A stretch of 64,000 bases of DNA from Desulfuromonas sp. TF. GTDB taxonomy: Bacteria; Desulfobacterota; Desulfuromonadia; Desulfuromonadales; ATBO01. A model generated the notes under the pieces. The model made no database searches. It had not been told where the DNA came from and saw nothing but the letters and a program-made list of their open reading frames with translations. Numbering within the stretch: the first letter of the stretch is position 1; every line of letters begins with the position of its first letter. The stretch covers positions 673,158 to 737,157 of the forward strand of contig NZ_KI421421.1 in NCBI RefSeq assembly GCF_000472285.1. The letters are read 5' to 3'. Position numbers and translations under genes: made by a program. Below are positions 2,156 to 61,666 of the stretch, one piece after another.

Positions 2156-3523
2156 TTGAACGCAAAAGACCGTAATCCTGCCACGGCTCTCTGGGATTTT
2201 TTCTGTTCCTTGAAGCTGACCATCGTCACTCTGATTCTACTGGCCGCTACTTCGATTATCGGGACTGTCATTCAGCAGAACCGCACCCCTGAAGAATACC
2301 TCCAAGTCTACAGCGAGACCACCTACAGGATCCTTAATACCCTGAAGTTTTTCGACATGTATCACTCCTGGTGGTTTCTGGCACTCCTCGGTATTTTTTC
2401 CATAAACCTCATCTCCTGTTCCATCAAGCGCTTCCCCCGGGTATGGAAGACGGTCAAAGAACCGGTGCTGGTGCCGGATGAGACGCTCTATCGCACCTTC
2501 TCAAACATGGAGGAGATAGTCATCCCGGCTTCCGTCGACGAGGTCAGGAAGAAGGTCGCCGATTTCACAAGCTCCCATTTCTCCACACCCGTGGTGACCG
2601 AAGAAAGCGGCAAGGTGCACCTTTTCGCGCAGAAGGCGGCCTACGCCCGCTTCGGCGTCTACGTCACTCATATCTCCATCCTGATCATCTTCATCGGCGC
2701 CATCATCGGAACCCTCTGGGGATACAAGGCCTTTGTCAATATCGTCGAGGGGACCGCTACCGACAAGGTCTGGCCGCGAGGTTCCAACGAACCCATCGAC
2801 CTCGGTTTTTCAGTTCGCTGCGACGAGTTTTCGGTCTCCTATTACGAGGGATCGAGCCGCCCCAGGGAGTTCAAGAGCCTTCTCACCGTCATCGACGAAG
2901 GGCGGACCATTACCGAGAAGAGACCGGTTGTGGTCAACGATCCCCTCACCTACGAGGGAATTACTTTTTACCAGTCGAGCTACGGACCCGCCGGCGAACC
3001 GGTCTTCAACTTCAAGGTCCGGGTCAAGGAAACTGGTGAGGTGGCGAACATTACGGCGCGGCAGGGCCAGAGGGTTCAGCTGCCAGGGGGCGGCGCCTTC
3101 CGGGTTGTCGACTTCACCCCATCGTACCAGAATTTCGGCCCCGGAGCCCGGCTGGAGGTCTTCACCGAAAGCGGCAAGCGAAACTCCTTCATCGTCCTGC
3201 AGGCTTTCCCTGACTTCGACGCACAGCGGGGCGGCGTCTACAGCTTCACTCTGGTTGATTTCAAGCAGCGTTTTTATACCGGTCTACAGGTGGCCAAGGA
3301 CCCCGGAGTCTGGGTCGTCTGGCTGGGATGCACACTGATGGTGCTCGGCTCCATGATCGCCTTTTTCCTGTCGCACAGGCGCATCTGGATCACCATCATG
3401 CCGGTCGGCGGCAAAACCGGCATCAAGCTCGGTGGAAGCGCCCACCGCAACCAACCGGCCTTTGAATTGTTTTTCGACGATTTCAAGAAGAACCTCAAGG
3501 CAGAACTTGTAGCCAGGGACTAG
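2156..3523 (+). CDS. resB: Cytochrome c biogenesis protein ResB
   Basis: ResB (Ccs1) works with ResC/CcsA in system II cytochrome c maturation, passing haem across the membrane and attaching it to apocytochromes. The 455-aa protein has hydrophobic segments near residues 20-40, 70-90 and 170-195, a large extracytoplasmic domain, and a last helix near 390-410, as in the family. It starts at TTG with a GGGAG ribosome-binding site about 7 bases upstream. resC follows 87 bases downstream, which supports the assignment. An organism with many c-type cytochromes would need this pair, and a cytochrome gene is present at the right edge of the window. Confidence 0.93.
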   Translation: MNAKDRNPATALWDFFCSLKLTIVTLILLAATSIIGTVIQQNRTPEEYLQVYSETTYRILNTLKFFDMYHSWWFLALLGIFSINLISCSIKRFPRVWKTVKEPVLVPDETLYRTFSNMEEIVIPASVDEVRKKVADFTSSHFSTPVVTEESGKVHLFAQKAAYARFGVYVTHISILIIFIGAIIGTLWGYKAFVNIVEGTATDKVWPRGSNEPIDLGFSVRCDEFSVSYYEGSSRPREFKSLLTVIDEGRTITEKRPVVVNDPLTYEGITFYQSSYGPAGEPVFNFKVRVKETGEVANITARQGQRVQLPGGGAFRVVDFTPSYQNFGPGARLEVFTESGKRNSFIVLQAFPDFDAQRGGVYSFTLVDFKQRFYTGLQVAKDPGVWVVWLGCTLMVLGSMIAFFLSHRRIWITIMPVGGKTGIKLGGSAHRNQPAFELFFDDFKKNLKAELVARD

Positions 3524-3610
3524 GGCGGAGAAGACGGAAGATCTAAATCTCGGAATAGTTCTTCGCTCGATTAGAATCGAACCCTCTCTCTGTACGGAGG
3601 CTCAAAAAAC

Positions 3611-4468
3611 ATGTCCAGTACGCAACTTTTCAATATCGTTACCATCGCCTATTTCTCCTCCATGGTTCTGTTCATCATCTATCTGGCGACCCGCAGCAAA
3701 GGGGTTTCCCTGATCGCCAGCATCGCGGCCTACGGCGGGTTGCTGGCTCATACCGCCGCCATCGGTCTGCGCTGGTACGAATCCTACCAGATCCCCGGCG
3801 GTGTCGGCCATGCTCCCCTGTCCAATCTCTATGAGTCGGTGGTTTTCTTCGCCTGGACCATCGTTCTCATCTACATGATCATTGATCTGAAGTACCGTCA
3901 GCCAGCAGTGGGGGCTTTCGTTCTCCCCTTCGCCTTTCTCTCGATGACCTGGGCCCAGCTCAGCCTCGACGATGCTATCGAGCCCCTGGTACCGGCCCTT
4001 CAGAGCAACTGGCTCACTTACCACGTCATCACTTGTTTTCTTGGCTATGCCGCCTTCGCCGTCGCCTGCGGGGTTTCCATCATGTACCTCATCAAGGTGG
4101 GCAAGGAGGATAAGGGTTCCGGAAATTCTCCCGCCGGAGGTATTCTGGCGGTATTCCCCAGCGCCAAAATACTCGATGATATCAATTATAAATCCATCAT
4201 GATCGGCTTCCCCCTGCTTACTCTCGGGATCATCACCGGAGCAGCCTGGGCCAATTATGCCTGGGGAACCTACTGGAGTTGGGATCCCAAGGAAACCTGG
4301 AGCCTTATCGTGTGGTTCATTTACGCAGCTTTTCTTCATGCCCGCTTCACGCGAGGATGGGTGGGAAGAAGGGCCGCATGGCTGTCCATCGTCGGCTTTG
4401 CCGCTACCATTTTCTGTTATCTGGGAGTGAATCTGGTCCTCTCCGGGCTGCATTCCTATGGGGGATAA
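3611..4468 (+). CDS. resC: Cytochrome c biogenesis protein ResC/CcsA (haem handling)
   Basis: This is a polytopic membrane protein of 285 aa with about eight hydrophobic helices. The tryptophan-rich motif YWSWDPKETWSLIVW (about residues 221-235) is the haem-binding WWD signature of the CcsA/CcmC family. With ResB it forms the system II cytochrome c synthetase. A GGAGG ribosome-binding site lies about 10 bases before the ATG. The gene ends 83 bases before a terminator hairpin, which closes the resB-resC unit. Confidence 0.95.
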   Translation: MSSTQLFNIVTIAYFSSMVLFIIYLATRSKGVSLIASIAAYGGLLAHTAAIGLRWYESYQIPGGVGHAPLSNLYESVVFFAWTIVLIYMIIDLKYRQPAVGAFVLPFAFLSMTWAQLSLDDAIEPLVPALQSNWLTYHVITCFLGYAAFAVACGVSIMYLIKVGKEDKGSGNSPAGGILAVFPSAKILDDINYKSIMIGFPLLTLGIITGAAWANYAWGTYWSWDPKETWSLIVWFIYAAFLHARFTRGWVGRRAAWLSIVGFAATIFCYLGVNLVLSGLHSYGG

Positions 4469-4550
4469 AAGGCGCTGAGATTCTTCAGTCGGAGGCGCAT
4501 TTAATTACCTGTCGTAAATTATTGATTCTCCTCGATACCGTCTTTGCCAA

Positions 4551-4586
4551 CGAGGCCCTGCATTGGCAGGGCCTCGCTCTGTTTTT
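4551..4586 (+). terminator. Rho-independent terminator after resC
   Basis: A perfect stem CGAGGCCCTG / CAGGGCCTCG with loop CATTGG occupies 4551-4576. It is followed by a T-rich run (CTCTGTTTTT). It ends the resB-resC transcript. Confidence 0.85.
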
Positions 4587-4698
4587 GCAGATGGCTGTGT
4601 CAGCCTCCTGTCCCGAGACCAATTCCCCGGGCGGTGCGCGAGACCCTTCGATGCCCTTTCAGGCAGCCTCCTTCAGCTGAACCTTTCTGAAAAACTCC

Positions 4699-5466
4699 TT
4701 GAACAGCAGGAATCGCTTGGAAGCAGACTCTCTTGTATACGCCGACGAAACTCTGGATGATCTCCGTCCGGGAGGGCTGAAAATCATCCAGAAATCCGGC
4801 GGTTATCGTTTCTCTCTTGACCCGATCCTGCTATGTGCCTTTGCCTGGATTGAAGAGGGTGATACGGTTGCGGATCTGGGCACCGGGTCCGGGGTGATCC
4901 CTCTTCTTCTGGCCGTCAAGACTGAACCAAAGAGAATTGTCGGGTTGGAACTTCAGCCGGAACTGGCGGACCGCGCACGACGCAGCGTGCTCCTTAACAG
5001 GCTTGAGGAGAAGGTGGAGATACTGGAGGGCGACCTGCGTGTTCTGCCGAAAAGCTTTGCCCCTCACTCTTTTGATGTGGTCCTTTCCAACCCTCCCTAC
5101 CGCCGGACCGGGACAGGCCGCAAGGCGCCCGCGGCCGAGCGGGCGGCAGCGCGCCACGAACTGGCCGGAGGGCTTGAGGATTTTCTCAGGGCGGCGGTCT
5201 TCATGCTGAGGCACGGCGGAAGGTTTTATATCGTCTATCTGGCGGAGCGCCTGGCGGAACTGCTGGATAAGATGCGTAGGGAGCGGCTTGAACCGAAGCG
5301 GCTGCGCTGCGTGCATTCACGGGTGGGGGAGCGGGGACGCATGGTGCTTGTCGAGGCCCGCAAGGGCGGTGGGGAAGGGCTTTCGATAGAGCCCCCTCTC
5401 TTCATCTATGACGGTGAAAAGTATACGGAAGAGGTGCTGGCCATCTATGCGGAGTCGCGGGACTGA
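4699..5466 (+). CDS. tRNA1(Val) (adenine37-N6)-methyltransferase-like protein
   Basis: This is a Rossmann-fold SAM-dependent methyltransferase of about 255 aa. Motif I is VADLGTGSGVIPLLLAV (about residues 56-72) and the catalytic motif of N6-adenine methyltransferases is NPPYRR (about 130-135). Length and motifs match the TrmN6/YfiC group, which methylates A37 of tRNA1(Val). Exact substrate is inferred. The TTG start at 4699 is uncertain; a second in-frame TTG is at 4717. It follows the resC terminator and so is a separate unit. It converges on the minus-strand DUF721 gene, leaving only 18 bases between them. Confidence 0.8.
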   Translation: MNSRNRLEADSLVYADETLDDLRPGGLKIIQKSGGYRFSLDPILLCAFAWIEEGDTVADLGTGSGVIPLLLAVKTEPKRIVGLELQPELADRARRSVLLNRLEEKVEILEGDLRVLPKSFAPHSFDVVLSNPPYRRTGTGRKAPAAERAAARHELAGGLEDFLRAAVFMLRHGGRFYIVYLAERLAELLDKMRRERLEPKRLRCVHSRVGERGRMVLVEARKGGGEGLSIEPPLFIYDGEKYTEEVLAIYAESRD

Positions 5467-51827: not shown

Positions 51828-52967
51828 TTATGTCGATATAAGGTTGAGTTGGTAACGGTTGTTCATGGTCCGCAGGAAGGGAGTGACCCCTTTGAGTGCT
51901 TGACGGAACTGGCGCCGCTCATCATCGGTCATGTCCAGCGGGTCGACATGGTTTGTGAGTTTATCGTTCGCGGCCAGTTCTCGCAGTTGCCACTGCAGAC
52001 GAAATTGGACCAGGAAGGTGAAGGCTTTTTCTATCGTTTCAAGGTCGTCAGGGGCTAGAACTCCCAGCCTTCCAAGAAGTTCCAGCTTTTCCCAGGTGCT
52101 CCCGCCGATGAAGCCGGCTTCGAGGGCAAGGACGCTCGTGCCAACGGTAATGGCAAAGATACCGGCTTTCTTGAGGTCGACTTTTCCCGCGTGTTCGCCT
52201 CTGCGCTCGACTCTGATGCGTCCGAACATGGAGAGTGGCGGCGGGAAGCGCAAGGCATGGAGCGCCATGTAGGTCAAAAATAAGGAGGAGTGCCGGACTG
52301 CGGCGAGGATGTGGCCGTGTAATTGTTTTTCCATGGCTTTTTCGCCGTGGAGAGCGCGAAGGCCCTGAAACATGCCGAAATTGAGTGTGTTCTCTGGGGT
52401 GGGGGCAGCGATCCATTGGTCGAGAAGCCGCTTCCATTCGGAGAGGCTGTGGCGCCACTGGAGATTGCTGGCCATGATGTTGCCGGGGCAGCGGGGGACG
52501 CCGATTTCTTCGAGGGCATCGACGAACCGAGTTGCGAAGCGCTCAATGTCGGGGAGTTTGTCCTCCGGCAGGTCGTCGACGAAGACGATGGCGCTGTCCT
52601 GGTCGGTGCGCAGGACCTGATCGCCACGCCCTTCACTGCCGAGGGCGAGGAAGGTGGCCCCCTCGGGGAGGCGAATACCCTCGGTGCTTTCCAGCAGGGC
52701 AATGAGGCGTAAGGTGATGGCGTCGTTAAGTCGAGAGATTTTCGGCACCAGGGTTTTTAGGTCGGTGCCCGGGCGGCTGGCGATCCTTACCAGATCGAGC
52801 ATCCTGACCCCGAGCCCCCGCAGGGCGTCGATGGATGGGGCTGTCTCAATCTCCCGAAAGAGAGTGAAGAGAAGCGGGGTGCAAGAGCCGACGGCGCCAT
52901 CCGGGTCCCGACCGGCTGTCCGCCGTGCAGAATTGCCCGGTTTATCAACTTTGCTGTCACCGGTCAT
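51828..52967 (-). CDS. DUF294 nucleotidyltransferase-like protein
   Basis: The 379-aa protein has a GlnD-like nucleotidyltransferase core: FLALGSEGRGDQVLRTDQDS (about residues 106-125), with the GS motif and a D-x-D pair. A C-terminal DUF294 substrate-binding helical domain (about 230-375) follows. It lacks the CBS and cyclic-nucleotide domains that often precede this core. It overlaps the symporter-kinase gene upstream by ATGA, so it is the last gene of that operon. The substrate is unknown; uridylylation or another nucleotidyl transfer is possible by family. Confidence 0.85.
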   Translation of the reverse strand: MTGDSKVDKPGNSARRTAGRDPDGAVGSCTPLLFTLFREIETAPSIDALRGLGVRMLDLVRIASRPGTDLKTLVPKISRLNDAITLRLIALLESTEGIRLPEGATFLALGSEGRGDQVLRTDQDSAIVFVDDLPEDKLPDIERFATRFVDALEEIGVPRCPGNIMASNLQWRHSLSEWKRLLDQWIAAPTPENTLNFGMFQGLRALHGEKAMEKQLHGHILAAVRHSSLFLTYMALHALRFPPPLSMFGRIRVERRGEHAGKVDLKKAGIFAITVGTSVLALEAGFIGGSTWEKLELLGRLGVLAPDDLETIEKAFTFLVQFRLQWQLRELAANDKLTNHVDPLDMTDDERRQFRQALKGVTPFLRTMNNRYQLNLIST

Positions 52968-55900
52968 GCGGCCCCTCGGGCGAGGGGGATGGTGAAGGAA
53001 AACACCGCGCCGCCTCCCACCTCGCTTTCGACCCAGATCTTCCCTCCCATCTTTTCGACGATCTCCCGGGAGATCGTCAGCCCCAGCCCGGTGCCGAGCG
53101 GATGGGATTTCTGCGGGTCCCGTGCCTGCTGAAAGCGCTCGAAAACCTGCTCCAGTCGGTCTGTGGAAATCCCCGGACCTTCATCCGCTACGCTGATCAG
53201 GGCAAAATCATCCTGTTGCCGGCCGCTCAGCCGGATCGTCCCTCCCTCCGGGGAGAATTTCACGGCGTTGGAGAGGAGATTTGTCAGCACCTGGTGGAGC
53301 CAATCCGCGTCGGCATAAACGGGTGGGAGGCCGGCTGCGACTTCGCCGCTCGCTCTGATGTTCTTTTCGGCGAAGAGCGGGTGAGTGGTGCCGAGTGCCC
53401 TGGAGAAGACCGGCTCAAGTTCCATCGGTTCTAGATGCAGGTCCAGGCGGCCGGCTTCGATCTTTGAAAGATCGAGAAGGTCATTGATCATTCGGGTGAG
53501 CCGCTCCGCCTCGTTATTGATGACGCTCACGAACTTCCTGCGTTTTTCCACGTCGTCCACATCGTAGCGCAGCAGAATCTCGGAAAAGGAACGGATCGAG
53601 GTTAGCGGGGTCCGCAGTTCGTGGCTCACCGTGGAGAGGAAATCGCTCTTGAGACGGTCCAGTTCGCGGAGCCGGGCGTTGGCCTTCTCGAGTTCGGCCG
53701 TGCGCCGTGCCACCTTTTCTTCCATTGCATGGCTGTAGGCTTGAACCTCGGTGTAGAGCTGGGCATTGACTGCCGCCATCGCCAGTTGATTGGCCAGAGC
53801 CGCAAACAGCTCGATGAACTCATCGGTGAAGTGCATGGGACCGCGGGTGGCATAGGCGGTGAGCACTCCGATCACCCGCCCCTCATAGGTCATCGGTGCG
53901 TGGATGAATGCGCTCACCGGCACATCCTTGACCAGCTTGGAGAAGAGCAGGGGCTTGTCGATCTCACGGGTGTCCCCCACCACCACCGGTCGAGCATCCA
54001 GGAAACACATGCCGAAATAGGTCTCCCTGGAGGGGACCATCGCTGACTCCGCCACGTAACCCGAGATGAGGCCTACGTGGCTGCGGATCCTCAAAGTTCC
54101 GTCCTCATCCAGCAGCCTTACCGCCAGGTGCTCGAAGCCGAACTCCCGCTTGATCAGGAGCAGCACCTCCTGCAGCAGGGTGTCGATATCGAGGCTTCGA
54201 GACAGGGCGTGCGAGGCCTCGTGGAGAACCACTAACTCCCGAAGTCGTCGCTCCAGGGCATCCCGGCTCTCGGCCAGGGTCTTGGAAACGCCGCCGAAGA
54301 CGTCCAGGATTTCCACAGCGCGTTCCCTGGGCCAGGCCAGAGTGCCGTTGATGATCATGCGAGCCGACTGAGCACCGAGGGCGCTGGCCAGACAACGCTC
54401 TGTCGCTTCGAGGAGCAGTTGGGGGGAGGCGCGCTCGGGAAGAGCCTCCAGCACATCCCGGGCCGTCCGGACACCCACGAAGCGCGCCAGAAGTCCTTCC
54501 ATGTCCGCCCTGGTGGCCCAGGCCGCGGGCAACTCGGAACGCGAGGCCTCCTGTGCAAGCTTTGCGGTCAGGAAGCTGAAGAAGAAATAGGCCCCTACAT
54601 TGAATACCATGCTCCAGATCAGGGCGTGGCTCCAGTTGTCGAAACCCTGCAGCCCGAAGAGTTCCCGCGGCTTCAGCAGTTCTATTCCCCACGGGCCATC
54701 CGTCAGGATCGACGCGCTTGCCCATCCCGAATCGACGAAACTGGGCAGAAGCAAGGTATAAGCCCATATAGCGAATCCGGCCACCAGCCCGGCGAGGGCC
54801 CCGATCCGGGTTCCACCTTTCCAGTACAGGCCGAGAAGGACGGCGGGCGCGAACTGGATTACGGCAGAGAAGGACAATAACCCTGTGGCGACCAGAGTGT
54901 GCGACTCTCCCATCCACCGCTTGAAGGCGTAACCCAGGAGAATGATGCCGAAGATGACGGCCCGCTTGGTGTTCAAAAGAGGACGGGCGAGATCCAACTT
55001 CCCTAAATTGCGGAAGGCAGGGAAGATTTTCCCCAGGAGTCCAACCCCGAAATGGTGAAGTATCATTGTCGACAGAGCGACCGAGGCAACGATAACCATG
55101 CCGGTTGCGGCGGAGAATCCTCCCAGGAAGGCGAGAAACGCCAGATCGGTATGGCCCCGCAACAGCGGCAGGGAAATCATGTAGAAATCGGGGTCCAGAT
55201 CTCCCCCGTACAGGCGCCCGACCAGGGCCACGGGAAGGACGAGAAGGTTGATAAGGAGCAGGTAGGCCGGAAATGCCCACGATGCCGTCCGCAGGTGGCT
55301 CTCCCGAACGTTCTCGACCGCCAGCATATGAAACTGGCGGGGCAAAAGGATGACGGCTGACGCCGAGAGCACGCTCAAAGAGACCCAGGCGGAAAAGGAC
55401 GTCCCGGAAACCTCCCCCATCAGGAAGAGACGAGAGAGGGCGGGGTCGGCCTGGGCCCTTTCGAAAACCTGGGTCAGCCCGCCGCCGATGCCGAAGGTAA
55501 TATAGAAGCCGAGCACCAGGAAGGCCACCAGCTTCACCGCGCTCTCGAATGCTATCGCAGCGACCATTCCCTCGTGCCGCTCGGTGGCAACCAGGCTCCT
55601 CGCCCCGAAGAGCCCGGCGAAAATGGACAGGCCGAGGGCCGCCCAGAAGGACGCATCATCCAGAATCCCCGAGACCACGGCTCTTCCTGTAAGAAAGTCG
55701 AAGGTATGACCGATGGCCTTGAGTTGGAGGGCGATATACGGAGTGATGCCGATCACCATCATGGTGGTGGCCAAGGCGCCCAGTGCCCAGCCCTTGCCGT
55801 ACAGGATTTCGAGGAGGTCCGGCAGGCTGGTGACACCTTCCGCCCGGCAGAAGGAGACCAGGCGCTTGAGCAGGGAGGGCCCCAGAAGAAAGACCAGGGT

Positions 55901-56128
55901 TGGGCCCAGATAAATGGGAAGGAATCCCAGCCCGGTGGTGGCGGCCTGCCCCACGCTGCCGTAAAAAGTCCAGGAGGTACAGTAGACGGCCAGGGAAAAA
56001 CTGTACACCCACGGGTTGTCGACCGGGCTGCGCCCCTCTTCCCTCGCCTTGTCCGTGGCGTAGGCGATGGCGAACAGGCCGAGAAGGTAGCCAAGCCCGA
56101 GGAATGCGACCCAGAAGGGCTGGCTCAT
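52964..56128 (-). CDS. Sodium/solute symporter-histidine kinase fusion (CbrA/CrbS type)
   Basis: The 1054-aa protein has a sodium:solute symporter domain of about 13 helices (residues 1-560, including TSWTFYGSVGQAATTGLGF). Then come a linker, a GAF domain (about 630-790), a coiled coil, and a kinase core with phospho-His in STVSHELRTPLTSIRSF (about residue 838). N box VLTNLLSNAVKFSPEGG and G boxes VADEGPGIS and GTGLGLTISREI are intact. CbrA and CrbS proteins of this type sense carbon sources such as histidine or acetate. Its small upstream partner overlaps it by four bases. Confidence 0.93.
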   Translation of the reverse strand: MSQPFWVAFLGLGYLLGLFAIAYATDKAREEGRSPVDNPWVYSFSLAVYCTSWTFYGSVGQAATTGLGFLPIYLGPTLVFLLGPSLLKRLVSFCRAEGVTSLPDLLEILYGKGWALGALATTMMVIGITPYIALQLKAIGHTFDFLTGRAVVSGILDDASFWAALGLSIFAGLFGARSLVATERHEGMVAAIAFESAVKLVAFLVLGFYITFGIGGGLTQVFERAQADPALSRLFLMGEVSGTSFSAWVSLSVLSASAVILLPRQFHMLAVENVRESHLRTASWAFPAYLLLINLLVLPVALVGRLYGGDLDPDFYMISLPLLRGHTDLAFLAFLGGFSAATGMVIVASVALSTMILHHFGVGLLGKIFPAFRNLGKLDLARPLLNTKRAVIFGIILLGYAFKRWMGESHTLVATGLLSFSAVIQFAPAVLLGLYWKGGTRIGALAGLVAGFAIWAYTLLLPSFVDSGWASASILTDGPWGIELLKPRELFGLQGFDNWSHALIWSMVFNVGAYFFFSFLTAKLAQEASRSELPAAWATRADMEGLLARFVGVRTARDVLEALPERASPQLLLEATERCLASALGAQSARMIINGTLAWPRERAVEILDVFGGVSKTLAESRDALERRLRELVVLHEASHALSRSLDIDTLLQEVLLLIKREFGFEHLAVRLLDEDGTLRIRSHVGLISGYVAESAMVPSRETYFGMCFLDARPVVVGDTREIDKPLLFSKLVKDVPVSAFIHAPMTYEGRVIGVLTAYATRGPMHFTDEFIELFAALANQLAMAAVNAQLYTEVQAYSHAMEEKVARRTAELEKANARLRELDRLKSDFLSTVSHELRTPLTSIRSFSEILLRYDVDDVEKRRKFVSVINNEAERLTRMINDLLDLSKIEAGRLDLHLEPMELEPVFSRALGTTHPLFAEKNIRASGEVAAGLPPVYADADWLHQVLTNLLSNAVKFSPEGGTIRLSGRQQDDFALISVADEGPGISTDRLEQVFERFQQARDPQKSHPLGTGLGLTISREIVEKMGGKIWVESEVGGGAVFSFTIPLARGAA

Positions 56129-56367: not shown

Positions 56368-59103
56368 CTAGAATCGGGATGACTGCCAGCGAAGCAGCAA
56401 ATGCCGGTCGCAGAAGCTCTTGGCTTCGGCGAGGGTCCTCACTTCCCGTCCCGGTAGCAGCGAAAGGAGGCCCAAGAACACTTGGGCGGCGGCACGGGCA
56501 TCACCGAGGGAAGTGTGCCGTCCCTCTATGGTGATCCCCATGCGTTCAGCGATGGCGTCAAGGCTATGTCCTTCGATCCCCTGATGAAGGGCGTAGGAAA
56601 GCAGCAGGGTATCGAGAATCGGATTATCGATCTGGGGAAGCCCCGCAGCGGCTGCGGCCATGTCGAGGCACTTTTTGTCGAATGCCGCGTTGTGAGCAAC
56701 CAGGATCGCGTCTCCCACGTATTCCATGAACTGCGGATATACCTCATCCATGGAAGGGGCATCTGCCACCATGTGGTCCTCGATATGGTGGATTTGTGTG
56801 GATTCGGGGGGAATGGGCCGACCCGGGTTGACCAGGGTGTTGAAGATGTCGGCATTTTGGACCCGCCCCCGGCGAATGCGAACGCCGCTGATGCTGATGA
56901 TCTTGTCCCCCCGGGAAAGCTGCAGTCCGGTGGTTTCGGTGTCGACCACCACATACTCGAGATCTGCAAGGTTGGCCTGCAGCAGATCTTCCCGCTCGAT
57001 AATCGGGCGGGGGAGAAACAGATCAAAATTGTAAAACTCCGGCTCCCCCTCGATCAGCCCGTCCGCACTGCGAACTTCGGGAACGGAGGCTGCCTGCAGC
57101 AGGGCCAGCCGCACCTCGAGGGAATCACCGGAAGACCGGGTCCACAGCTCTCCCCGGTTTCTTCGCACCGCCTCTCCCAAGGGAAGAGGCACTTCGCCGG
57201 CGGGGCATACCTCAAGGGATTCCAACTCGGCCAGGTCGCCGGCGAAAGAACCCCCGATCCGGAAGGTCGTAACTACGGTCCCGTCCTCCACCCGGATGTT
57301 GGCGGCGACCGAAACCTGTCGGGAACTCCTCCGGGCGATCCACTGAAGGACGCACCGCAAGGAGGCCACCCAGGAGAACGGCTCCACCAGAACAGGGGGG
57401 ATGAGGTCGCCGCCGGCCTCGATCTCTACCGAAATTCCCGTGACCGAAATCAAGGATTCCTCCACGAGCTCCAAGGGATTTGAGGGGACGGCCGACCAGC
57501 GCGGCGTCTGTGCGGCGCCGGCGGCCTCCTCCATGACCGTCACCCGCTCGCCCAGGCGATCCATCTCCTCGGCCACCGCAGCGAGGAACACCTGTTGTTT
57601 CTCCTCAGGCATCTCCCGGTGCCGTTGGATTGTCTCGACAAGGAATCGGGAGGTGGCCACCGGCCCCCTCAGGAGTTGGGGCATCTCTCTCAGGGTTTCC
57701 TCGAACAGGTTCCCCTCTTCGGTGGGAGCGCTCAGATCGCGAAATACGAGAAGGAATCCGGCACGTTCTCCATCGGGTCCGGGGATAACCGAAAGGGATC
57801 CCTTGAGAAGCTTCCCGTCGATGAGTGGAAAGACCACTTCTTCCATGGCCTCCCCGCCCGGGTTCCAATTCCGGCGAAGTCGCTTCAAGTGAAAGCTGAG
57901 CCGGTCGCTGGGAAAGATGCGCGACAGCGGAGCTCCTATGCCTGAGGTGTATTCCCGGCCGAGAATTATGCGGGCACGGGGGTTCATCAGGATGGTCTCG
58001 GCGGCCTCGTTGGCCACGACCACACCGTCCACCATGGTGCGAAGCACGGTAGCCAGCCGATTGCGCTCCTCCTGCAGCGTCAGGGTCGCTTCCCGCACGC
58101 GCTCTTCAAGCTTGTCGTAGGCCTTGGCCAGGTTCTCGGCCATGAGGTTGAACTCAAGGGCCAACTCCTCGAGCTCATCCCCCGTATCAAGCTCAATCCG
58201 ATGAGCCAGATTGATGCGGGAAACGATCTCGGCGCCGCGCCGAATCTCCAGGATGGGGCGCAGGAATTGATCCGCCATCCGCCACGCCAGAGTGACGACC
58301 ATTATGCCGAAGACGGCCAGCAGGAAGGCCACCTGACCGCTTACCGAGAAAAAATGGCCGTATACCTGGGATGCCGGTTGGACCACGGCGAGAAACCAGC
58401 CGCGATCCGCGGCGCTCCCAAGTGGCTCCACTGCCGCCACGCCGGCGAAATAGCTCTCATCGTCGGCCTCAAAGGTTGTCCACTTGAACAAGTCTTCGGT
58501 GTAGGGGGGGACGGGAATCGAGGGGTTTCCCGCCAGTCGGTCTCCCCCGGCCGTGAACAGAACCGCGCCCCCTCCTTCCCCCTTTTTCGACACATCGAGG
58601 AACTGTTTCAGGTCTTCCGGAGCGAAGAAAACCTCAAGTGTGCCGAGGCGACCCCCATCGGTGTCCGTCACCACAACCCGGTAGTCCAGGGTCTTCTCGG
58701 AGTACGGGTCGGGGGACGGTTTGTCGCCTGGAATTGTGGGGCCGCCGTTCGGAACCAGAGCGATCCTTTGAAGCCCGGGATGGGATTGACGGGCCGATGA
58801 AAGGATCTCTTCCGGCAAAGGTCCCGTACCCGACAGATATGCCTTGACCTCAGACGATGCCGCCAGGGCAGCCGCAGCCTGCTGGTAACGGTTCAACTCT
58901 GCCCGCAGATGCCCTGCCAGTTGCTCCGCCTCCTGGGCAAGTTGGCGCCCCTGGTTCTCCCCTATGTCGTTGCGGACTATGAAGAACAGTGCCGTCAGCG
59001 CAGCCAGCAGGGGCAGTACAGCCAGTCCCATGAGGGAAACGATCATGCGGCTGCGCAGGCTTTTTCTTCTGCGAAGGGGCGATGCCCCCTGATCAGCCGT
59101 CAT
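56368..59103 (-). CDS. Membrane sensor pseudokinase fused to a DnaQ-type 3'-5' exonuclease
   Basis: The 911-aa protein has a transmembrane helix (about residues 20-43), an extracytoplasmic Cache-like sensor domain and a second helix (about 250-272). HAMP (about 275-325) and PAS domains (about 335-460) follow, then a kinase-like region. There the usual SHELRTPL is replaced by PQLLRGPV, so the phospho-acceptor His is Gln, and no clear ATP-binding boxes remain. The C-terminal exonuclease (about 715-885) has all DEDDh motifs: VVVDTETTGL, VAHNAAFDKKCLD and HTSLGDARAAA. It overlaps the receiver gene by ATGA. Confidence 0.9.
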   Translation of the reverse strand: MTADQGASPLRRRKSLRSRMIVSLMGLAVLPLLAALTALFFIVRNDIGENQGRQLAQEAEQLAGHLRAELNRYQQAAAALAASSEVKAYLSGTGPLPEEILSSARQSHPGLQRIALVPNGGPTIPGDKPSPDPYSEKTLDYRVVVTDTDGGRLGTLEVFFAPEDLKQFLDVSKKGEGGGAVLFTAGGDRLAGNPSIPVPPYTEDLFKWTTFEADDESYFAGVAAVEPLGSAADRGWFLAVVQPASQVYGHFFSVSGQVAFLLAVFGIMVVTLAWRMADQFLRPILEIRRGAEIVSRINLAHRIELDTGDELEELALEFNLMAENLAKAYDKLEERVREATLTLQEERNRLATVLRTMVDGVVVANEAAETILMNPRARIILGREYTSGIGAPLSRIFPSDRLSFHLKRLRRNWNPGGEAMEEVVFPLIDGKLLKGSLSVIPGPDGERAGFLLVFRDLSAPTEEGNLFEETLREMPQLLRGPVATSRFLVETIQRHREMPEEKQQVFLAAVAEEMDRLGERVTVMEEAAGAAQTPRWSAVPSNPLELVEESLISVTGISVEIEAGGDLIPPVLVEPFSWVASLRCVLQWIARRSSRQVSVAANIRVEDGTVVTTFRIGGSFAGDLAELESLEVCPAGEVPLPLGEAVRRNRGELWTRSSGDSLEVRLALLQAASVPEVRSADGLIEGEPEFYNFDLFLPRPIIEREDLLQANLADLEYVVVDTETTGLQLSRGDKIISISGVRIRRGRVQNADIFNTLVNPGRPIPPESTQIHHIEDHMVADAPSMDEVYPQFMEYVGDAILVAHNAAFDKKCLDMAAAAAGLPQIDNPILDTLLLSYALHQGIEGHSLDAIAERMGITIEGRHTSLGDARAAAQVFLGLLSLLPGREVRTLAEAKSFCDRHLLLRWQSSRF

Positions 59104-59754: not shown

Positions 59755-61272
59755 TCAGGGCGTATGCACCTCCTCCGCCAGAAACTTTCGGATTCTTTCC
59801 GGCGGGGGTGAGGTGGTCAGGGAAACGGCAATCATCACCAGGATCACCAGAGGTGCTCCAAGGAAAGCGGAAGATGTGGGAGGAAACAGGGTGCTGATCA
59901 ATGGAATGAGATCGCCCAGCAACAGGGCGGCGAAGGTAATGCACAGACCCGTGATCATACCGGCGATCGCTCCGAATTTGTTCGTGCGGTCCCACCAGAT
60001 GCCGAGCAGGAAGACGGGAAAGAGGGTGTTGCCGGCCAGGGCGAAAGCCACCGCGGTGATCTCGGCGATGAGGCCCGGTGGGTTGGCGGCAACGATGACC
60101 ACCAGGAAGGCGAGAACCAGGGTCGCTCCTTTGGCGACTTTCATCCGTTTCCCTTCGCTGGCCCCGGGATTGATGAGCCGGAAGTAGATATCGTGGGAAA
60201 AAGCTCCGGCGCCCGTGATGAGCAGCCCCGTTACCGTGGAGAAGGCGGCGATAATCGCTCCCACCGCGACGATGCCCGTCAGCCAGGGTGAGAGTCCCGC
60301 CCATTCTCCGGCCTTGATCACGACAAGATCGGCCATGGCCCGCGCCGTGGCCGGATCAGGTGCGATCTGGTTGTTCAGTTCCCAGACCCGGGCGAAGGTA
60401 GCATAGGCGGGGGCACTCCAATAGAGGAGGCCGATGAAGAAAATACCCCAGATGACGCTCCAGCGGGCATCGCGGATGTTCGGAACCGTGTAGAAATGGG
60501 AGAGGACGTGTGGCAGCCCCGCCGTTCCAACCATGAGGGTGAAACAAAGAGAGATCCATTCAAAAGGGGTGCCGAAGGTCCACGGCGATGTATAGGCGCC
60601 CTTCCCCTGGGCCAGATCCTCCAGGGCAGCACCGTATCCGACCTGAGGGACGGCCCAGAAATAACCCAGCTTCTTTGCGACGAACATCAGGGGAATGATG
60701 AAGGAAAGGATCAGCACCATATAATGAAGCTGCTGGTTGCGGGCGGCGCCGAGAGTGCCCGACAGGACAAGATAGGAGATGGCAACCGTCGTGCCCAGAA
60801 AAAGGGACGCGGTGTAATCCAGGCCGAAAATCCAGGAGAAGACCAGCGCGATCCCCTTGTACTGCGCCACGCAGTAGACCAGTGAGATGAGAATGGCGAT
60901 CGCCGCTGAAAGGAGACGGGCCACCGGGGAGTCGTAGCGCGCCTCGACGAATTCGGGCGCCGTGTATTTGCCGAAACGGCGGATCTGCCCGGCCATGAGG
61001 ATCAGCAGCAGGACGTACCCTCCTGTCCAGCCGATCACGTAGGCCAGGGCGAAATAGCCTTTGAGGTAGAAGATGCCGGCGATCCCGAGAAAAGAGGCGG
61101 CGCTCATCCAGTTCGAGGCGATGGCCGCCCCGATTCCCATGCGGCCTATGTGGAGTCCGGAGACCGCATAGTCCTCCCTTTTTCTGGTTCGACTGGCCAG
61201 CCCCACCAGAAGGGAAAGGGCAAGAAATCCGAACAGCAGCAGGACCGGGGCCAGTTTCAAACCGTCTCTCAT
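59755..61272 (-). CDS. Sodium/solute symporter (acetate permease ActP-like)
   Basis: The 505-aa polytopic protein of about 13 helices belongs to the symporter group that includes ActP. It has FLALSLLVGLASRTRKREDY, AIASNWMSAASFLGIAGIFY (Na+ site region), VGTAGLPHVLSHFYTVPNIRD (short form) and AAFSTVTGLLITGAGAFSHD. Acetate or another short carboxylate is the likely substrate by family and by the DUF4212 partner. It is 12 bases downstream of the DUF4212 gene. Confidence 0.92.
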   Translation of the reverse strand: MRDGLKLAPVLLLFGFLALSLLVGLASRTRKREDYAVSGLHIGRMGIGAAIASNWMSAASFLGIAGIFYLKGYFALAYVIGWTGGYVLLLILMAGQIRRFGKYTAPEFVEARYDSPVARLLSAAIAILISLVYCVAQYKGIALVFSWIFGLDYTASLFLGTTVAISYLVLSGTLGAARNQQLHYMVLILSFIIPLMFVAKKLGYFWAVPQVGYGAALEDLAQGKGAYTSPWTFGTPFEWISLCFTLMVGTAGLPHVLSHFYTVPNIRDARWSVIWGIFFIGLLYWSAPAYATFARVWELNNQIAPDPATARAMADLVVIKAGEWAGLSPWLTGIVAVGAIIAAFSTVTGLLITGAGAFSHDIYFRLINPGASEGKRMKVAKGATLVLAFLVVIVAANPPGLIAEITAVAFALAGNTLFPVFLLGIWWDRTNKFGAIAGMITGLCITFAALLLGDLIPLISTLFPPTSSAFLGAPLVILVMIAVSLTTSPPPERIRKFLAEEVHTP

Positions 61273-61284
61273 TATGTTTGCTCC

Positions 61285-61605
61285 CTACCGGCGCTTCCGG
61301 TATTTCTCTCTCAGGCGGTCGATAGACACGTTGAAGAGAAAACAAAGAAGAATGAACCAGAGGATCAGGAACTGGCTGGTGAACCAGTAGTGGAAAGGAA
61401 AGCCGAAAATGTTCATCGCCGTCAGGGCGCTCTCACCCGAGTTTCGGGCCAGCAGGAGCTGGAAACCGAAGGTTAGAAAGGCCCATCCCGCCAGCATGAT
61501 CCAGATGACGGCCACTTCCCTGCGCATGAACCCGGGCCGGGGACGAAAAAGGTTGACCCGGTAGTCTCCTGACGGTTCGCCGTCAGGGGGCGGATTCTGT
61601 GCCAT
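61285..61605 (-). CDS. DUF4212 small subunit of a solute symporter
   Basis: The 106-aa protein has two helices (about residues 33-55 and 73-95) and the family motif NIFGFPFHYWFTSQF (about 65-79). DUF4212 proteins are encoded directly before ActP-type symporters. GAGGAGGT lies 5 bases before the ATG at 61605; a GTG two codons earlier is less likely. The spacer to truD contains a CCGGGGA / TCCCCGG hairpin at 61624-61641 without a T-run. Confidence 0.9.
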   Translation of the reverse strand: MAQNPPPDGEPSGDYRVNLFRPRPGFMRREVAVIWIMLAGWAFLTFGFQLLLARNSGESALTAMNIFGFPFHYWFTSQFLILWFILLCFLFNVSIDRLREKYRKRR

Positions 61606-61666
61606 GAGCACCTCCTCTGCCGCCGGGGACGTTTCCCCGGAGCATTCAATCCGGCCGGCGTCCGTA

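Follow-up and report, generated by a model that had tools for sequence, protein, structure and literature searches.

The evidence from sequence supports the view that the fusion protein encoded in the window, that is, the 64,000-nucleotide stretch of Desulfuromonas sp. TF DNA that was analysed (contig NZ_KI421421.1, positions 673,158 to 737,157), is a kinase-derived, catalytically dead signalling chain joined to an intact DEDDh exonuclease. Furthermore, the contents of the surrounding operon suggest a signalling pathway that ends in a nuclease, and not in a gene switch. The genes and domains concerned are listed in Table 1.

Table 1. Features of the fusion gene and its operon, in window coordinates.
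Feature	Position	Strand	Basis
Fusion gene, 911 aa	56368..59103	minus	ATG start; open reading frame matches these bounds exactly
Periplasmic dCache-like domain, about residues 45-244	58372..58971	minus	Between two TM helices; hydropathy, model, fold search
HAMP domain, residues 276-326	58126..58278	minus	Pfam 31.2 bits, cut-off 25
Pseudokinase module, residues 462-700	57004..57720	minus	hhalign to the active SSS-kinase; model; site tally
DEDDh (RNase_T, PF00929) domain, residues 718-876	56476..56952	minus	Pfam E 2.8e-36, profile 1-164/164
Receiver-only response regulator (RR), 142 codons	59100..59528	minus	Pfam Response_reg E 7.1e-33, no other domain
SSS symporter-like/GAF/HisKA/HATPase histidine kinase (SSS-kinase)	52964..56128	minus	HisKA E 6.7e-22, HATPase_c E 3.6e-31
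DUF294 + DUF294_C putative nucleotidyltransferase	51828..52967	minus	Pfam E 2e-38 and 3.9e-39
VC_2705-family sodium/solute (monocarboxylate-type) symporter	59755..61272	minus	TIGR03648, 481.7 bits (cut-off 320.75)
DUF4212 small symporter subunit	61285..61611	minus	PF13937 E 3.1e-20; TIGR03647 above cut-off

From its N-terminus, the fusion protein is predicted to comprise a transmembrane (TM) helix, a dCache-like domain, a second TM helix, a HAMP domain, a PAS domain, a DHp domain devoid of histidine at the phospho-acceptor site, a degenerate CA domain, and the exonuclease. Hydropathy places the two TM helices at about residues 26-44 and 254-272. An earlier, sequence-only reading of this DNA had proposed HAMP, PAS and kinase-like regions, to be checked by domain search and structure prediction. 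Both were run and bear the architecture out: the HAMP domain scores above its Pfam cut-off, the PAS region (residues 349-456) just below it, and the kinase-like part is recognized by profile-profile comparison. The AlphaFold2 model of the whole protein has a mean pLDDT of 79 and a pTM of 0.41, the latter making the arrangement of the domains relative to one another unreliable. In a Foldseek search, this model matched the WalK sensor kinase from the periplasmic domain through the CA domain (E 6e-25). The fusion resembles WalK-type kinases in fold along the whole chain, but has neither their phospho-acceptor histidine nor their ATP-binding motifs.

Pfam lists neither a HisKA nor a HATPase match for the fusion. 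When residues 462-700 were aligned by hhalign with the active kinase of the same operon, the two matched over 206 columns with a probability of 99.0 (E 2.8e-18), and the halves were also recognized when compared separately (DHp, E 7.6e-11; CA, E 1.1e-9), while an unrelated control reached 0.5%. By these profile comparisons, the DHp/CA part of the fusion provably descends from a histidine kinase; a Neorhizobium homologue retains a HATPase_c match (E 0.0016). The DHp helices correspond to residues 462-494 and 500-531, and the CA-like part to residues 539-670. In the hhalign alignment, the phospho-acceptor histidine of the kinase lies opposite Gln476, and the N-box and G-boxes are missing from the fusion both in the profile alignment and in the family alignments.

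The replacement of histidine by glutamine had been singled out in the sequence-only reading. While this holds for the window protein, it does not describe a conserved state: position 476 is occupied by Q (11), E (4), A (3), S (3), L (2), R (2), K (1) or T (1) in the 27 family members linked to an RR gene, and by D (8), E (5) or A (1) in the 14 unlinked members. This variation rules out glutamine as a functional substitute for histidine. Histidine occurs at the aligned site in none of these 41 homologues, nor in additional plasmid-encoded ones, and a search for homologues with an intact kinase histidine and ATP site, which the same reading had named as counter-evidence, found none. In a survey for fusions that keep both the glutamine and the DEDDh set, it was the latter alone that proved constant (42 of 42 sequences). 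Near the lost acceptor site, Leu478, Arg/Lys479 and Pro481 are invariant in the 27 RR-linked proteins and mostly gone in the 14 unlinked ones. This context was considered as a marker of RR docking and rejected, as the split tracks phylogeny, the Paracoccus and Cupriavidus proteins have no proline, and two unlinked plasmid proteins retain K/R-P.

The exonuclease domain, in turn, is intact as had been claimed. Its catalytic residues, Asp721, Glu723, Asp809, His863 and Asp868, are invariant across all 42 sequences of an alignment built without plasmid-derived rows, and homologues with a degraded exonuclease site, likewise named as counter-evidence, were looked for and not found. The model of this domain adopts the PolC/epsilon fold (rmsd about 1.6-2.3 Å), and its nearest solved relatives are of the PolC type (E 5e-28) and the epsilon type (E 2.5e-18). 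With these DnaQ-type exonucleases it shares the fold and all five catalytic residues, at 30-37% identity to the solved members; unlike them, it is predicted to follow a signalling chain that ties it to the membrane, and to lie outside any polymerase. A role in anti-phage defence was considered and set aside, since the PADLOC matches were only to DEDDh-exonuclease models and covered that domain alone. In one further observation, the only RNase_T (PF00929) domain detected in genome G214 sits in the fusion, with no separate DnaQ epsilon found by that profile.

The fusion gene is closely embedded among potential partners. The RR gene lies immediately upstream, and its stop codon overlaps the start of the fusion gene (ATGA). 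The SSS-kinase gene lies downstream and encodes a protein of CrbS-like architecture in which the phospho-acceptor histidine (SHELRTP) and the ATP site are intact. Its membrane part is related to SSS symporters by hhalign (97.6%, E 3e-12); a direct Pfam SSF match is absent for the window kinase and weak for its Paracoccus homologue. The end of the kinase gene is overlapped by four bases by the start of the DUF294 gene, in whose product the Pol-beta-type motif GSEGRGDQVLRTDQD is intact (GSxGR...TDQD; motif alignment). The symporter and DUF4212 genes sit further upstream than the RR gene.

Full-length or near-full-length relatives of the fusion are present in 13 of the sampled genomes of the class, that of the window included, at about 68-75% identity, and in other Desulfobacterota at 41-55%. 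A second clade from the window's own order and the fusions of Paracoccus and Cupriavidus are about 25-32% identical. An RR gene directly precedes the fusion gene at 32 distinct loci in Desulfobacterota, Paracoccus and Cupriavidus, with the phospho-site residues of the RR conserved. The four-base overlap between the two genes recurs at 29 of these loci, and one of the three exceptions (L077) is an artefact of a trimmed start. The second clade keeps the DHp and CA parts of the fusion, and no RR gene adjoins it at 15 of 16 assessable loci; on a tree of 54 rows, some of whose branches are long, three changes of RR linkage are needed.

The kinase is similarly linked. Among 194 genomes of the class, 12 of the 13 with a close fusion carry an orthologous SSS-kinase (76-84% identity), and in the thirteenth (G160) the kinase half alone adjoins the fusion (locus L042); in class genomes with no close fusion, the best SSS-kinase match reaches about 52% identity or less. 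The quartet of RR, fusion, SSS-kinase and DUF294 genes is linked in Geobacteraceae, Paracoccus and Cupriavidus. The Geobacteraceae loci are syntenic with the window operon, usually with a second DUF294 gene in addition, while the order is DUF294 - small gene - kinase - RR - fusion in Paracoccus and symporter - kinase - RR - fusion - DUF294 in Cupriavidus. Family f67, whose kinase has no SSS part, and G160 are exceptions to the full quartet, and at several loci the flank was too short to cover DUF294. The second DUF294 gene of Geobacteraceae is divergent (24-27% identical to that of the window) and often lies between the symporter and RR genes (for example L038:19429-20724, L041:8215-9504 and L045:8231-9550); the window appears to have no such gene. 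The window genome itself carries a Geobacteraceae-type fusion (up to 84% identity), whereas in its own order the genomes sampled have only the clade at 30% identity. The module may have been transferred laterally, or the taxonomic placement may be in question.

The association of DUF294 with an exonuclease extends beyond these operons. In a phylum-wide sample of 29 loci, selected by the DUF294_C profile alone, an exonuclease matching the profile of the fusion family lies beside DUF294 at 10, within just 1.5 kb of flank, even though each of five genomes counted has only one or two RNase_T genes. Plasmid records pair the two in Vibrio, Microvirga, Methylocella and Limimaricola, and by annotation in Hymenobacter (Bacteroidota); a Skermanella plasmid record with DUF294 has no paired exonuclease. 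In Microvirga the gene order is acs-DUF485-actP-DUF294-exonuclease, and, judging from gene neighbourhoods, DUF294 is often found beside DEDDh exonucleases within acetate operons. In P. aeruginosa, PA3232-PA3235, including actP, form one propionate-induced cluster (PMC9765439). In P. putida, PP_0354 and PP_0353, encoding a CBS protein and an RNase_T exonuclease, constitute an operon targeted by MxtR/ErdR (also known as CrbS/R); cells lacking PP_0353 show impaired growth on pyruvate (PMC9927547).

On the exonuclease tree, whose root is unknown, the stand-alone DUF294-linked exonucleases (Vibrio, Microvirga and others) branch apart from those of the fusions, and on this phylogenetic reading the pairing with DUF294 recurs in two lineages. 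Descent of the fusion exonuclease from a stand-alone, DUF294-linked one finds no support in these separate branches, and the P. putida phenotype is therefore transferable by analogy only. Some of the pairs have neither kinase nor RR, which shows that the RR layer is optional. Shinella and Limimaricola also have a small hypothetical gene (about 170-190 aa) between DUF294 and the exonuclease, and in Skermanella such a gene follows DUF294 (L094:4459-4989, L151:5561-6082 and L149:5490-6071); it may encode another component.

Since the receiver has no output domain of its own and adjoins a DHp domain that cannot be phosphorylated, the fusion is the obvious partner of the RR. In the mechanism proposed here, the SSS-kinase would phosphorylate the receiver-only RR, which, being unable to bind DNA, would in its phosphorylated form (RR~P) dock on the His-less DHp bundle of the fusion. 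The fusion would then act as a reader of RR phosphorylation rather than as a kinase, in the way that DivL reads DivK~P, and docking would alter the HAMP-PAS-DHp-CA stack and thereby switch the tethered exonuclease on or off, the exonuclease acting in opposition to DUF294. Such a two-component system with a nuclease output is given an even chance of being the correct description. What the sequence itself shows is the architecture, the dead kinase, the conserved linkage, and the fact that exonuclease, kinase, receiver and nucleotidyltransferase each retain their catalytic residues.

The recurrence of the nucleotidyltransferase-exonuclease pair further suggests that the two enzymes share a target and take part in a write-erase cycle. 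DUF294 would add a nucleotide to this target, which may be a protein or the 3' end of an RNA, and the exonuclease would take it off as a 5'-NMP. The chemistry suits the erasing role, in that DEDDh enzymes cleave off a terminal nucleotide bearing a free 3'-OH as a 5'-NMP, and they could in principle also remove a nucleotide joined to a protein hydroxyl. That the operon encodes a reversible nucleotidylation cycle under two-component control, in which the RR-gated fusion erases what DUF294 has written onto a carboxylate-metabolism protein or RNA, is put forward tentatively, as a possibility more doubtful than probable. The cycle would probably serve to adjust how the cell takes up or uses the carboxylate that the neighbouring symporter transports, and, from family context, the ligand of the kinase is presumably acetate or another monocarboxylate, as in CrbS-type systems.

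The fusion might instead be a receptor in its own right, with a ligand on the dCache-like domain relayed through HAMP, PAS and DHp to the exonuclease and the RR dispensable, in keeping with the earlier claim that the protein couples an extracellular signal to hydrolysis. A Cache domain had been proposed, and it is supported by the modelled fold only, Pfam giving no match for the periplasmic domain: the model of residues 36-252 (pLDDT 77.5) matches dCache chemoreceptor ligand-binding domains with a best E of 7e-8 and TM of about 0.5-0.67. The window protein and several homologues do retain a complete dCache-like domain linked to a TM-HAMP relay, and in one clade the fusion gene has no RR gene in its vicinity. 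However, among close relatives the periplasmic domain is complete in the proteins of the window, L009 and L038, shortened to about 130-145 residues in five, and absent from eight, and the second clade has just a short loop between the two TM helices; the helices, HAMP, PAS, DHp and exonuclease are retained where the domain is halved or lost. Across these sequences the predicted membrane anchoring is the constant part and the extracellular input the least conserved. Because the sensor is eroded or absent in so many relatives, extracellular sensing is not favoured as the main input, and the coupling claim is unsupported as worded, the conserved input partner being the receiver-only RR, encoded at most RR-linked loci by a gene that overlaps that of the fusion. 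The fusion is thus unlikely to act as the receptor itself.

Alternatively, the pseudokinase could serve as a phosphate sink or phosphatase-like scaffold that tunes the kinase-RR pair, with the exonuclease held at the membrane for housekeeping RNA or DNA turnover only. Dead histidine kinase folds are able to bind response regulators, and DivL stabilises DivK~P (PMC5361649), but the invariant catalytic set of the exonuclease and its recurring linkage to DUF294 point to a dedicated nuclease role, and this explanation appears distinctly improbable. The most remote of the alternatives considered concerns the substrate. DEDDh enzymes include Orn and other dinucleases, and the sequence-only reading had accordingly raised pGpG as a target; an Orn-like enzyme might degrade dinucleotides (pGpG or pApA, for instance) or a nucleotide second messenger, and DUF294 could conceivably be the source of such a small nucleotide. 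Yet the closest relatives of the domain are the PolC and epsilon exonucleases, with no Orn chain among its PDB matches even at E <= 10, and an Orn-type target is therefore disfavoured and held to be very unlikely.

The preferred reading, in which the fusion reads RR~P, combines features of systems already described. As in the CrbS/CrbR (MxtR/ErdR) acetate switch, a kinase with an SSS symporter-like membrane part is encoded beside VC_2705-type symporter genes, and among the genes of the CrbS/R target operon in Pseudomonas are those for an exonuclease and a regulator with a CBS domain (PMC9927547, PMC5715377). CrbR, however, activates transcription, whereas the window RR is a bare receiver (142 codons, Response_reg only) that has no DNA-binding domain, and the link to acetate use here consists only of the linkage to a VC_2705-family symporter. 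In P. putida, an SSS-kinase system likewise controls a single operon that combines a regulator gene with one for an RNase_T exonuclease (PP_0354/PP_0353; PMC9927547), but the exonuclease there is a separate gene, whereas in the window it is fused to the pseudokinase.

The closest parallel to the reading step is provided by DivK and DivL of Caulobacter, which also combine a single-domain RR with a His-less kinase fold preceded by a PAS domain; DivL prefers DivK~P over DivK and passes this state on (PMC5361649). The phospho-site of the window RR is intact, as in single-domain regulators of the DivK type, and its docking on the fusion is proposed with DivL and DivK as the precedent. The output of DivL is another kinase, CckA, while here an enzyme is fused to the pseudokinase itself. 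Studies of bacterial pseudokinases as readers of response regulators are few, and the DivL paper raises the question of whether signal flow is reversed in this manner elsewhere (PMC5361649). No two-component system with a nuclease output was found described in the open-access literature. The operon offers a compact and widespread case, present in the cultured species Paracoccus denitrificans, Cupriavidus necator and Geobacter argillaceus, and it would provide a handle on the role of the DUF294/exonuclease pair in acetate-use operons, of which PP_0353 has the pyruvate phenotype (PMC9927547).

Two further observations concern relatives of the operon's genes. Within the second clade, one family has a separate DEDDh exonuclease gene (about 240 aa) directly beside the fusion gene, giving tandem exonucleases (for example L062:2446-3162 and 3217-5271; also G083, G051, G071 and others). 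SSS relatives occur in 173 of the 194 class genomes. These ubiquitous paralogues were considered as partners of the unlinked clade, but the idea was dropped: Pfam identified the two that were checked as SSS-GAF-SpoIIE proteins, and of those examined none lies near a fusion, a receiver-only RR or a DUF294 gene of this kind. These two widespread SSS-like paralogues (L138:6068-9286 and L128:6462-9674) end in GAF-SpoIIE and not in a kinase, are about 45% identical in the membrane part, and join a symporter-like protein to a PP2C-type phosphatase domain.
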